Assembly: GCF_026410255.1 (NCBI RefSeq) | Contig: NZ_JAPMLL010000009.1 | Span: 1 to 64,000 of the forward strand | Direction: 5' to 3' | Origin: Xanthomarina sp. F1114 | Lineage (GTDB): Bacteria > Bacteroidota > Bacteroidia > Flavobacteriales > Flavobacteriaceae | Length of the DNA: 64,000 nucleotides | Part shown: in pieces, positions 42,516 to 43,655 of the stretch | Numbering within the stretch: position 1 is the first letter of the stretch | Layout of the letters: each line of letters begins with the position of its first letter | The notes under the pieces: model-generated | What the model was told of the DNA's origin: nothing | What the model saw: only the letters and a program-made list of their open reading frames with translations | The model's database searches: none | Program-made: the position numbers and the translations under genes

Positions 42516-42589
42516 GGGCTCGTAGCTCAGCTGGATAGAGCACCTCCCTTCTAAGGAGGCGGTCACAGGTTCGAATCCTGTCGGGCTCA
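42516..42589 (+). tRNA. tRNA-Arg(TCT)
   Basis: This 74-nt tRNA has the anticodon stem-loop CCTCCCTTCTAAGGAGG with anticodon TCT. The acceptor stem GGGCTCG/CGGGCTC has two wobble pairs, and the discriminator is A. Its 3' half (from 42560) is repeated perfectly at 42906. This copy is intact and should be the functional tRNA. Confidence 0.96.
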
Positions 42590-42628
42590 CACAAGACTTC
42601 ACTAGTAATAGTGGGGTTTTTTTGTTTT
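42560..42628 (+). repeat. Proximal 69-bp direct repeat: tRNA-Arg 3' end plus terminator
   Basis: This 69-bp sequence runs from the base before the tRNA variable region (CGGTCACAGG) through the 3' end of tRNA-Arg and the terminator hairpin to the T-run and GTTTT. It is identical in all 69 positions to 42906-42974. Confidence 0.95.
42597..42628 (+). terminator. Terminator of the tRNA operon
   Basis: An 8-bp stem (42597-42604 with 42609-42616, including two G-T pairs) has loop GTAA and is followed by T7-G-T4. It is part of the duplicated 69-bp repeat. Confidence 0.8.
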
Positions 42629-42630
42629 AT

Positions 42631-42885
42631 ATGGAATTCTATACTTATATACTTTATTCAAAAAACATAGATAGTTATTATGTTGGTCATACTGGCGATT
42701 CGTTAGAAGAGCGCTTACGTAAACATAATACAAACCACAAAGGCTATACTGGTAAAACAAACGATTGGGCTATTGTTTATAAAGAACTTTATGTTAGCAA
42801 AACTGAAGCCTACGCAAGAGAAAGGTATATTAAAAAACAAAAGTCCAGAGTTTATATTGAGCAATTAATAAGTTCTGCTAAATAG
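42631..42885 (+). CDS. Small GIY-YIG nuclease domain protein
   Basis: This 84-residue protein is just the URI-type GIY-YIG core. The paired motif is Y4TYIL and Y16YVG, the catalytic Arg region is LEERLRKHN (R28 to H32), and the metal-binding Glu is E64 in AYARERYIKK. The ATG at 42631 was preferred to an in-frame TTG 9 nt upstream. It lies 3 nt after the terminator T-run of the tRNA operon, so expression must come from terminator readthrough or a weak promoter. The TAG stop codon lies in sequence copied from the tRNA-Arg D arm. It could act as a homing-like endonuclease. Confidence 0.85.
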   Translation: MEFYTYILYSKNIDSYYVGHTGDSLEERLRKHNTNHKGYTGKTNDWAIVYKELYVSKTEAYARERYIKKQKSRVYIEQLISSAK

Positions 42886-42935
42886 AGCATCCCGATTCAT
42901 CGGGACGGTCACAGGTTCGAATCCTGTCGGGCTCA
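42882..42935 (+). pseudogene. Truncated tRNA-Arg copy with replaced anticodon arm
   Basis: It begins with ATAGAGCA, identical to the D-arm end of tRNA-Arg, and from 42906 on matches its 3' half exactly. The 17-nt anticodon arm is replaced by a 16-nt palindrome, TCCCGATTCATCGGGA. The 5' acceptor strand is missing, so it cannot fold as a tRNA. It overlaps the stop codon of the GIY-YIG gene. Confidence 0.8.
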
Positions 42936-42974
42936 CACAAGACTTCACTAGTAATAGTGGGGTTTTTTTGTTTT
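42906..42974 (+). repeat. Distal 69-bp direct repeat
   Basis: This is the perfect second copy of 42560-42628 at an offset of 346 bp, including the terminator hairpin (42943-42962) and T-run. It probably ends the GIY-YIG transcript. Confidence 0.95.
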
Positions 42975-43014: not shown

Positions 43015-43452
43015 TTAACTCACAATAAAAATTAAAACCTCAATGGGAATATCCCCCGTAATTGTATACAAAACGGTGTTATAGCTTCCTTTTCCTTGAC
43101 GCAGATATTTGCCATCAAAAGTGTATAGAACTTTTTTATAATCGCCCTTACCTTCTCTAATAAATTCTCCATCCCAAGTAAAAAGTACGTCTTTATAGTC
43201 TCCTTTCCCTTTTCTTAAATATTTTCCATCCCAAGTCGCTAAAACGAGATTGTAATCTCCTTTTCCTTTTCGGAAATATTTGCCGTCATAAGTGACTAAT
43301 ACATTGTTATACATGCCTTTACCTTGTCGTAAATATTTTCCATCCCATGTAAATACAACTTCCTTATAATCACCTTTGCCTGCTCTAATATATGTTTGAG
43401 CATCTATTAAAAAAGATGAAAATAGAAGTGTAAGAGTTAAGATAAACCTCAT
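43015..43452 (-). CDS. Secreted protein of six 19-residue repeats
   Basis: The protein has 145 residues after a start set at 43452. It begins with signal peptide MRFILTLTLLFSSFLIDAQ, and the mature part from residue 21 to 134 is six near-exact 19-residue repeats. The consensus is Y-L-R-x-G-K-G-D-Y-K-x-V-L-x-T-W-D-G-K. The repeats begin at residues 21, 40, 59, 78, 97 and 116. Each should form two strands with a Gly turn, giving a beta-solenoid or propeller-like stack. A hydrophobic tail of 11 residues (IPIEVLIFIVS) follows. I do not recognise the family. An in-frame TTG 18 nt upstream was rejected as a start because it would break up the signal peptide. Confidence 0.8.
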   Translation of the reverse strand: MRFILTLTLLFSSFLIDAQTYIRAGKGDYKEVVFTWDGKYLRQGKGMYNNVLVTYDGKYFRKGKGDYNLVLATWDGKYLRKGKGDYKDVLFTWDGEFIREGKGDYKKVLYTFDGKYLRQGKGSYNTVLYTITGDIPIEVLIFIVS

Positions 43453-43655
43453 GTTTTGTTTAATTGACAAGTTTTAGATGAGATATTCTCATTTTAATAT
43501 TCATTTTCAATAGTTATCTTCTTCTTAATAAAAACAAAATGTAGTCTAAAACATCAGAAATAGCTATTACTTGTTTAAACCATATTAAATGTAATTATCA
43601 TGCTATTATTTTTATAGGCAAGAGGAAAAAGAATATAATTTCAAGACTTTCTGAT

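Follow-up and report, generated by a model that had tools for sequence, protein, structure and literature searches.

The window, the whole stretch of 64,000 nucleotides from Xanthomarina sp. F1114 that was analysed, carries a Ser-Pro-Arg tRNA cluster of which tRNA-Arg(tct) was found by ARAGORN to be the last member. The features at this tRNA are given in Table 1. Two 69-nt direct repeats, 100% identical and 346 nt apart from start to start, flank a gene for an 84-residue GIY-YIG protein whose ATG lies 2 nt past the end of the first repeat. A tRNA end is thus present at both borders of the cassette. The repeat comparison and the ARAGORN call agree with the original prediction, which had described these two copies around the gene and an intact tRNA-Arg upstream. 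At full length, tRNA-Arg(tct) was observed to have one match in its own genome, the runner-up (81% identity) being the pseudo-tRNA.

Table 1. Features of the tRNA-Arg locus in the window
Feature	Position	Strand	Basis
Intact tRNA-Arg(tct), target	42516..42590	+	ARAGORN
First 69-bp copy: tRNA-Arg variable loop to 3' end, with terminator	42560..42628	+	direct repeat, 100% identical
Single-domain GIY-YIG nuclease gene, 84 aa	ATG 42631..stop 42885	+	PF01541, E 1.7e-14
Pseudo-tRNA-Arg	42882..42936	+	alignment to tRNA-Arg; same design in relatives
Palindrome TCCCGATTCATCGGGA (TCCCGAT-TC-ATCGGGA) in the anticodon-arm position	42890..42905	+	pattern count, tRNA alignment, stem covariation (55 relatives)
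Second 69-bp copy: 3' part of the pseudo-tRNA, with terminator	42906..42974	+	direct repeat

The downstream copy had been described as a remnant that holds the tRNA 3' end. It is a remnant, but not a mere 3' end, as it consists of the D-arm end, a hairpin instead of the anticodon arm, the variable loop, the T-arm and the 3' strand of the acceptor, in that order, and therefore forms a hairpin-bearing pseudo-tRNA. The sequence ATAGAGCA (42882-42889) matches the tRNA D-arm and the downstream tRNA copy thus starts before the 69-bp repeat. The stop codon of the GIY-YIG gene (42883-42885) falls within this D-arm piece. The pattern TCCCGA-N0..8-TCGGGA occurs once in the 64 kb of the window against a shuffle mean of 0.01. 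Besides the GIY-YIG gene, the space between the two copies was observed to hold one ORF of at least 50 aa (52 aa, opposite strand, 42602-42760), and neither a tyrosine nor a serine integrase was found among the ORFs of this size, as had been predicted. Beyond the locus, an ordinary protein with a 57-bp internal repeat and the Pfam 6-fold beta flower (PF21786) is encoded on the minus strand at 43015-43470.

The Pfam GIY-YIG match (PF01541, E 1.7e-14) covers residues 3-73. Residues Y6, Y17, G19, R28, H32 and E64 are invariant in 26 diverse relatives, where eleven columns are invariant overall, and these columns include what we take to be the catalytic Tyr, Tyr-x-Gly, Arg and Glu of the domain. 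By the match and these columns, the protein belongs to the GIY-YIG nuclease superfamily (PF01541). Its closest solved structures by profile are the UPF0213 entries PDB 1zg2 (E 2.6e-15) and 1ywl (E 8.8e-13), followed by Slx1 (E 2.5e-8), with I-TevI far behind (E 0.033). Neither NCBIfam nor PADLOC returned a match for the window protein; some of its relatives had weak, partial ones. No PHROG matched the window protein at E 0.01; of two relatives, one weakly matched homing endonuclease PHROGs. Carriage by phages or plasmids was considered and set aside, as no match was found among 50,697 phage records, a single one (40%) among 72,556 plasmid records, and no relative among the 89 stretches of viral contigs that fitted peptide patterns.

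GIY-YIG genes beside tRNA genes in the Bacteroidota

The window protein was used as a query (E <= 1e-8) against 149 Flavobacteriaceae genomes from 148 genera, and 43 of the 149 were found to contain a match. The 82 listed matches examined fall into 60 loci, of which 49 have a tRNA no more than 400 bp from the gene or gene array, always on the same strand (49/49). That GIY-YIG genes adjoin tRNAs in other flavobacteria, which the original prediction had mentioned, is therefore borne out, and the tRNA neighbours listed for the homologues show that most loci adjoin a tRNA, on the same strand wherever one was found. In three of the 49 loci the nearest ARAGORN call is named Stop, SeC or unknown; a genuine tRNA-Val is also present in two of these (L039 and L043), and the third (L049), at a contig end, probably has only a pseudo-tRNA. 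Of the eleven loci without a tRNA call, five contain T-arm motifs (L040, L069, L077, L086 and L092). Five others lie less than 250 bp from a contig end and have no T-arm motif, and tRNA-like remnants were recognised by eye in two of them (L093 and L062).

A profile (A1) built from 26 relatives and applied at E <= 1e-16 to 296 genomes of the phylum, from 140 genera, matched 137 genomes and 81 genera. A same-strand tRNA adjoins the gene in 27 of 30 phylum-wide loci given by this search, two of the 30 being repeats of the Flavobacteriaceae loci above. Furthermore, an adjoining tRNA was observed in 70 of 80 named loci (three of whose genomes were already among the 149), with 63 of the 70 showing a clear tRNA-Val or tRNA-Arg in the 3' type of arrangement described below and seven showing unusual tRNA calls, some of which are probably pseudo-tRNAs. 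No tRNA neighbour on the opposite strand was found in the sets of 60, 30 and 80 loci. The named loci are nearly all from Bacteroidota such as Psychroserpens, Bizionia, Algoriphagus, Niastella, Cytophaga, Pedobacter and Marivirga. A few metagenome bins labelled Streptomyces griseus, Bifidobacterium breve, Limnohabitans and Paraglaciecola are probably misbinned.

Thirteen named kinds of tRNA occur within the 60-locus set alone. All seven loci of genome G384 (17 matches) adjoin tRNAs, which are of seven kinds. In genome G442 only four of eleven loci adjoin a tRNA; at another (L219) a GIY-YIG gene, with direct repeats of 23 and 25 nt on either side, follows a tmRNA. A search by genus gave 20 GIY-YIG matches, 14 of which have no tRNA in the fetched stretch, and linkage to tRNAs is therefore a property of part of the GIY-YIG superfamily. 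Three GIY-YIG genes in other settings were also noted. The gene at L021 (genome G006), of another subfamily, lies before what we presume to be an E2 acyltransferase gene, and a duplicated 5' fragment of the acyltransferase gene with a palindrome of the CCTGC..GCAGG type inside it is found upstream, which is the same design on a protein gene. At L082, the last of the eleven loci without a tRNA call, whose gene looks like a different GIY-YIG subfamily, inverted palindromes lie on both sides of the gene (GTCATTCCTGCGAAGGCAGGAATCTC and a near inverse of it). At L215 the palindromes around the gene are CCCCGTCAAATA..TATTTGACGGGG, and the gene apparently lies within a protein-coding gene, as an insertion sequence would.

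A protein tree was built from 171 rows and 81 columns, with 79 of its 165 inner branches left open. When the kind of tRNA is placed on this tree, the 136 labelled rows need 33 changes, a figure that stands without a shuffle control; with the 35 unlabelled rows counted as a group of their own, 52 changes are needed against a shuffled mean of 99.8 (0 of 200 shuffles as low), although near-copies in the tree favour such clustering. The small number of changes suggests that a clade tends to stay with one tRNA, switching at times to another.

Two mirror-image types were recognised. The 3' type begins with the tRNA and a terminator, followed by one or more units of GIY-YIG gene, 3' part of a pseudo-tRNA with hairpin, and terminator. 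In the 5' type, one or more units of tRNA flank, 5' part of the tRNA with hairpin, and GIY-YIG gene precede the intact tRNA, and the hairpin often follows tRNA position 22, or position 14 or 27 in others. The original prediction had proposed a family of tRNA-hitchhiking elements that use the tRNA 3' end; the family exists and is large, but the mirror-image elements upstream of tRNAs show that the 3' end is not the sole site. On the far side of the gene, the second copy of the tRNA has a higher score than any of 100 shuffles in 25 of 28 3'-type loci and in 17 of 20 5'-type loci, no clear copy being found in three loci of each type (L079, L084 and L085; L025, L034 and L073). More than one GIY-YIG copy is present in 17 of the 60 Flavobacteriaceae loci. 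L113 and L117, from the phylum-wide set, have five units each. In L074 (genome G129), five GIY-YIG units of 391 bp lie behind a tRNA-Met, with two further copies, one of them partial, about 7 kb on. The start codon was observed at a median of 42 nt from the tRNA end (120 loci) and this stretch held a terminator in the loci inspected. Such an arrangement leaves little room for a promoter, and our guess is that the gene is reached by readthrough from the tRNA.

The hairpin within the tRNA copy

Hairpins were counted among the 98 gene copies of the 80 named loci, excluding 35 copies with no T-arm motif within 160 bp. In the remaining 63 units, a hairpin with a stem of at least 5 was observed near the T-arm in 58, and in 54 it is located exactly 9 nt before the motif GTTCGA. 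When the stem is required to be at least 6, the share with a hairpin is 90%, compared with 2.5% after shuffling. Among 55 aligned distinct units, the stem positions pair in 96% of cells and the two-sided changes number 42 against 10.6 in shuffles (0 of 500 as high). The covariation score of 0.267 likewise exceeds both the shuffled value of 0.093 (0 of 500) and that of a slid alignment (at most 0.087). The compensating changes include C-G to T-A in ten units, and A-T to C-G in nine and to T-A in four. Two other measures did not rise above the shuffles: how many pairs show any two-sided change (4; 154 of 500 as high) and how many further pair types the hairpin has (107 of 500 as high).

Because the hairpin takes the place of the anticodon arm, the pseudo-tRNA might act as RNA: the nuclease would act on the tRNA or be tamed by it, the pseudo-tRNA would be a transcribed decoy or antitoxin, and the system would be one of addiction and not of homing. 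A decoy of this kind would be encoded beside its parent tRNA, and the tendency of clades to keep one tRNA fits as well. All seven acceptor pairs are possible in two of the 63 pseudo-tRNAs (L128 and L146). L146 folds as a cloverleaf (z -3.2) with the hairpin as its anticodon arm, and L128 has a stable fold (z -4.1) of a different shape. However, no other pseudo-tRNA of the 63 can form the whole acceptor stem and at least six pairs are possible in only five, while units of the 5' type have their hairpin in the D-arm region and lack the 3' half. The tandem arrays and the occupied and empty alleles described below also point to recombination of DNA, and we know of no GIY-YIG RNase. We consider this RNA-level explanation quite unlikely.

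Some units were found to lack the gene. A tight pattern of the hairpin in its tRNA context occurs in 20 places in 10 of 148 genomes, against none for the reversed control. Nine of these places lie 2-38 bp behind a GIY-YIG gene. The other eleven are not preceded by such a gene; an intact tRNA follows them at 29-290 bp, in some cases with a GIY-YIG gene behind it. For example, at least four GIY-less units, mostly 78 bp apart, precede a tRNA-Arg in genome G079 and a GIY-YIG array lies behind the same tRNA, while in G049 the hairpin of the GIY-less unit is that of a GIY-YIG unit on another contig. Genome G100 has three GIY-less units and a single GIY-YIG match, within a 690-aa frame; no tRNA-type GIY-YIG partner was found there. 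The GIY-less units suggest that the hairpin in the tRNA copy is the cis-acting part.

Two hairpins, in the D-arm and anticodon-arm positions, were seen in L256 and L260 (genomes G080 and G100), before tRNA-Arg and tRNA-Asn respectively, and the pseudo-tRNA of L019 also has two. A fuller model is needed for these two-hairpin pseudo-tRNAs and for the GIY-less units. We also considered the hairpin as an abundant dispersed repeat by counting a loose pattern (TYCCG..CGGRA) and its reverse, as control, in 12 genomes. This is not favoured for the window genome (51 against 31), and the pattern falls below its control in six of the 12 genomes. A large excess occurs in G384 (134 against 13) and G442 (208 against 24), where the hairpin pattern may also be a dispersed repeat.

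Occupied and empty sites and a proposed mechanism

The orthologous locus was found in seven of seven sister species, and five of these have the tRNA-Arg and a terminator with no insert. The site thus exists in an occupied and in an empty form, as for a free-standing homing endonuclease. The original prediction, a self-inserting element that uses a tRNA end, is supported by these empty sites; the comparison of empty and filled loci in sisters had been set in advance as a test of it, and the outcome favours insertion. A gain of the cassette is likely, although an empty site could also arise by loss through the repeats. For a tRNA-Met locus in the genus of genome G319, the stretch was taken from 30 of 58 matched genomes. 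Leaving aside one genome that has no tRNA there, the site is empty in 28 of 29 congeners and filled with a five-unit array in the other.

The terminators of filled and empty sites were also compared. Over 38 ungapped positions, the window terminator shows 4 differences from a Bizionia locus that carries a relative, 5-6 from four of the empty sisters, and 18 from the fifth (L015), which has another terminator. Four of the five, or five of the six, differences from the four sisters are bases common to Bizionia, which is no more than a hint, by a small margin, that the terminator might not be the host's, as the original prediction took it to be. At the filled site of G319 the six terminators are of one type, with the last of the array the same as the first. 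This type is absent from the 28 empty sites, where 18 terminators share a common type and 10 vary, and at the tRNA-Met site the incoming element may have replaced the terminator. Evidence for co-conversion from the terminators is weak, given the ten varying empty sites and the window margin of 4 against 5-6. Foreign terminators would have to include the last of the array, which simple insertion by a single crossover does not predict. A single crossover inside the tRNA was considered in its own right and is not favoured, because it would leave a terminator of the resident type at the far end, where G319 has the same terminator last as first.

A purely passive history would explain part of these observations. 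GIY-YIG genes would have become trapped at tRNAs, with the arrays and empty sites produced by unequal recombination and the nuclease having no role in the spread. Direct repeats recombine in any case, the 69-bp repeats would allow a unit to be lost and the empty site to be restored perfectly, and terminators change at empty sites too. Such a history sits poorly with the thirteen named kinds of tRNA in the 60-locus set, with a hairpin that keeps its position and has a covarying stem, and with array copies that differ mainly at silent sites (dN 0.010 and dS 0.181 in G120; pS up to 0.214 and pN up to 0.048 in G129). Furthermore, for one filled and 28 empty tRNA-Met sites a gain is easier than 28 losses, by a count that takes no host tree into account. 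We regard passive trapping as unlikely.

The other two sister species (L012 and L018; genomes G001 and G007) have a different insert after the tRNA-Pro of the same cluster and no tRNA-Arg in the fetched stretch. The first ORF of the L012 insert shows integrase Arm DNA-binding and SAM-like domains in Pfam. As tRNA 3' ends are common attachment sites, this neighbour could be taken to suggest that the cassette is itself an island of the integrase type that carries the GIY-YIG gene as cargo and was inserted by a tyrosine integrase in trans, attaching at the tRNA 3' end. Mirror-image elements on the 5' side of tRNAs, a repeat that takes in the terminator and a hairpin within the tRNA copy, which is foreign to the attachment sites we know, all count against such an origin, and we consider it very improbable.

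We prefer to read the locus as a minimal cassette of about 346 bp that resides on tRNA genes without an integrase and spreads through a structure-specific GIY-YIG nuclease and host recombination, with the tRNA as homology. We put the probability of this reading at roughly 57%. Its observed parts are the one-domain GIY-YIG gene, the hairpin-interrupted copy of its target tRNA and the terminator. The nuclease may recognise the tRNA gene, the hairpin in branched or single-stranded form, or both, and would break the DNA there. Host recombination would then repair the break using the tRNA sequence as homology, so that the incoming copy leaves the tRNA gene whole and sometimes replaces the tRNA 3' end and terminator by co-conversion. 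Breaks within an array would lead to tandem amplification. The gene might be expressed from the promoter of the tRNA itself, which would explain why it lies on the strand of the tRNA. By inference, as in the original prediction, the mobility enzyme would be the GIY-YIG protein. The intact tRNA exactly matches that of an empty site (L013), and a nuclease cutting the tRNA gene itself would therefore attack its host; no immunity is visible in the sequence. Also counting against this reading are the two hairpin measures at shuffle level, the six loci with no clear second tRNA copy, the hairpin pseudo-tRNAs of G100 for which no tRNA-type GIY-YIG partner was found, and the low share of tRNA-adjoining loci in G442.

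A broader proposal, which we put forward tentatively and with less than even confidence, is that these cassettes form a new class of minimal elements widespread in Bacteroidota. The nuclease and the hairpin in the tRNA copy would make up a self-targeting unit, the tRNA would offer a nearly universal homology, and GIY-less copies would be moved or amplified in trans. If true, tRNA genes would be colonised with no integrase, transposase or DNA-binding domain.

Comparison with known systems

If our reading is right, tRNA genes in much of the phylum host unrecognised, self-propagating DNA of about 350 bp with one enzyme of about 80 residues, to our knowledge among the smallest such elements. Annotated genomes contain orphan "GIY-YIG nuclease" genes and tRNA fragments, which the cassettes could account for as well. 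Since clades tend to match one tRNA and the hairpin covaries, the family would offer a ready test of how a lone GIY-YIG domain finds its target. In the literature on GIY-YIG proteins with tRNAs or homing, covered for a minority of the subscription papers, no chromosomal tRNA-linked GIY-YIG cassettes were found described.

Islands and ICEs that target tRNAs are also located at tRNA genes, where the tRNA stays whole and its end is repeated. The cassette differs from them in having no integrase, a length of about 0.35 kb, a place on either side of the tRNA, a terminator included in the unit and a hairpin. REP palindromes with their RAYT transposases likewise place a nuclease gene beside short palindromes, some copies of which have no gene, but the enzyme fold is different and the palindrome of the cassette is fixed inside a tRNA copy.

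UPF0213, a group of single-domain GIY-YIG proteins, and Slx1 are the closest solved relatives of the window protein by profile. Slx1 is a eukaryotic, structure-specific endonuclease with further domains. The Ssn proteins are single-domain GIY-YIG nucleases that reportedly cut a cognate, repeated palindromic site as single-stranded DNA. By this description they resemble the cassettes in combining a single GIY-YIG domain with a palindrome, which is conserved in the cassettes, and the Ssn family may be related to the tRNA-linked family. We know of no tRNA-linked cassettes in the Ssn work.

The working precedent is SegB of T-even phages, a GIY-YIG homing endonuclease whose gene lies beside tRNA genes and which cuts within tRNA genes (PMC13096335). 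Its cleavage motif is given as RAWTSGAAC (PMC13096335), which by our own reading would fit the tRNA T-arm. SegB is required for tandem amplification of the tRNA-segB segment, for which phage recombination genes are also needed, and the parts of that account available to us describe no hairpin pseudo-tRNA units such as the cassettes carry (PMC13096335). SegB is borne by phages, whereas the cassettes are chromosomal, occur across Bacteroidota and leave the tRNA intact. The likeness, drawn from these descriptions, lies in a GIY-YIG nuclease gene beside tRNA genes and in tandem arrays, and the cassettes, if our reading is right, would supply chromosomal parallels to the phage SegB amplification system.
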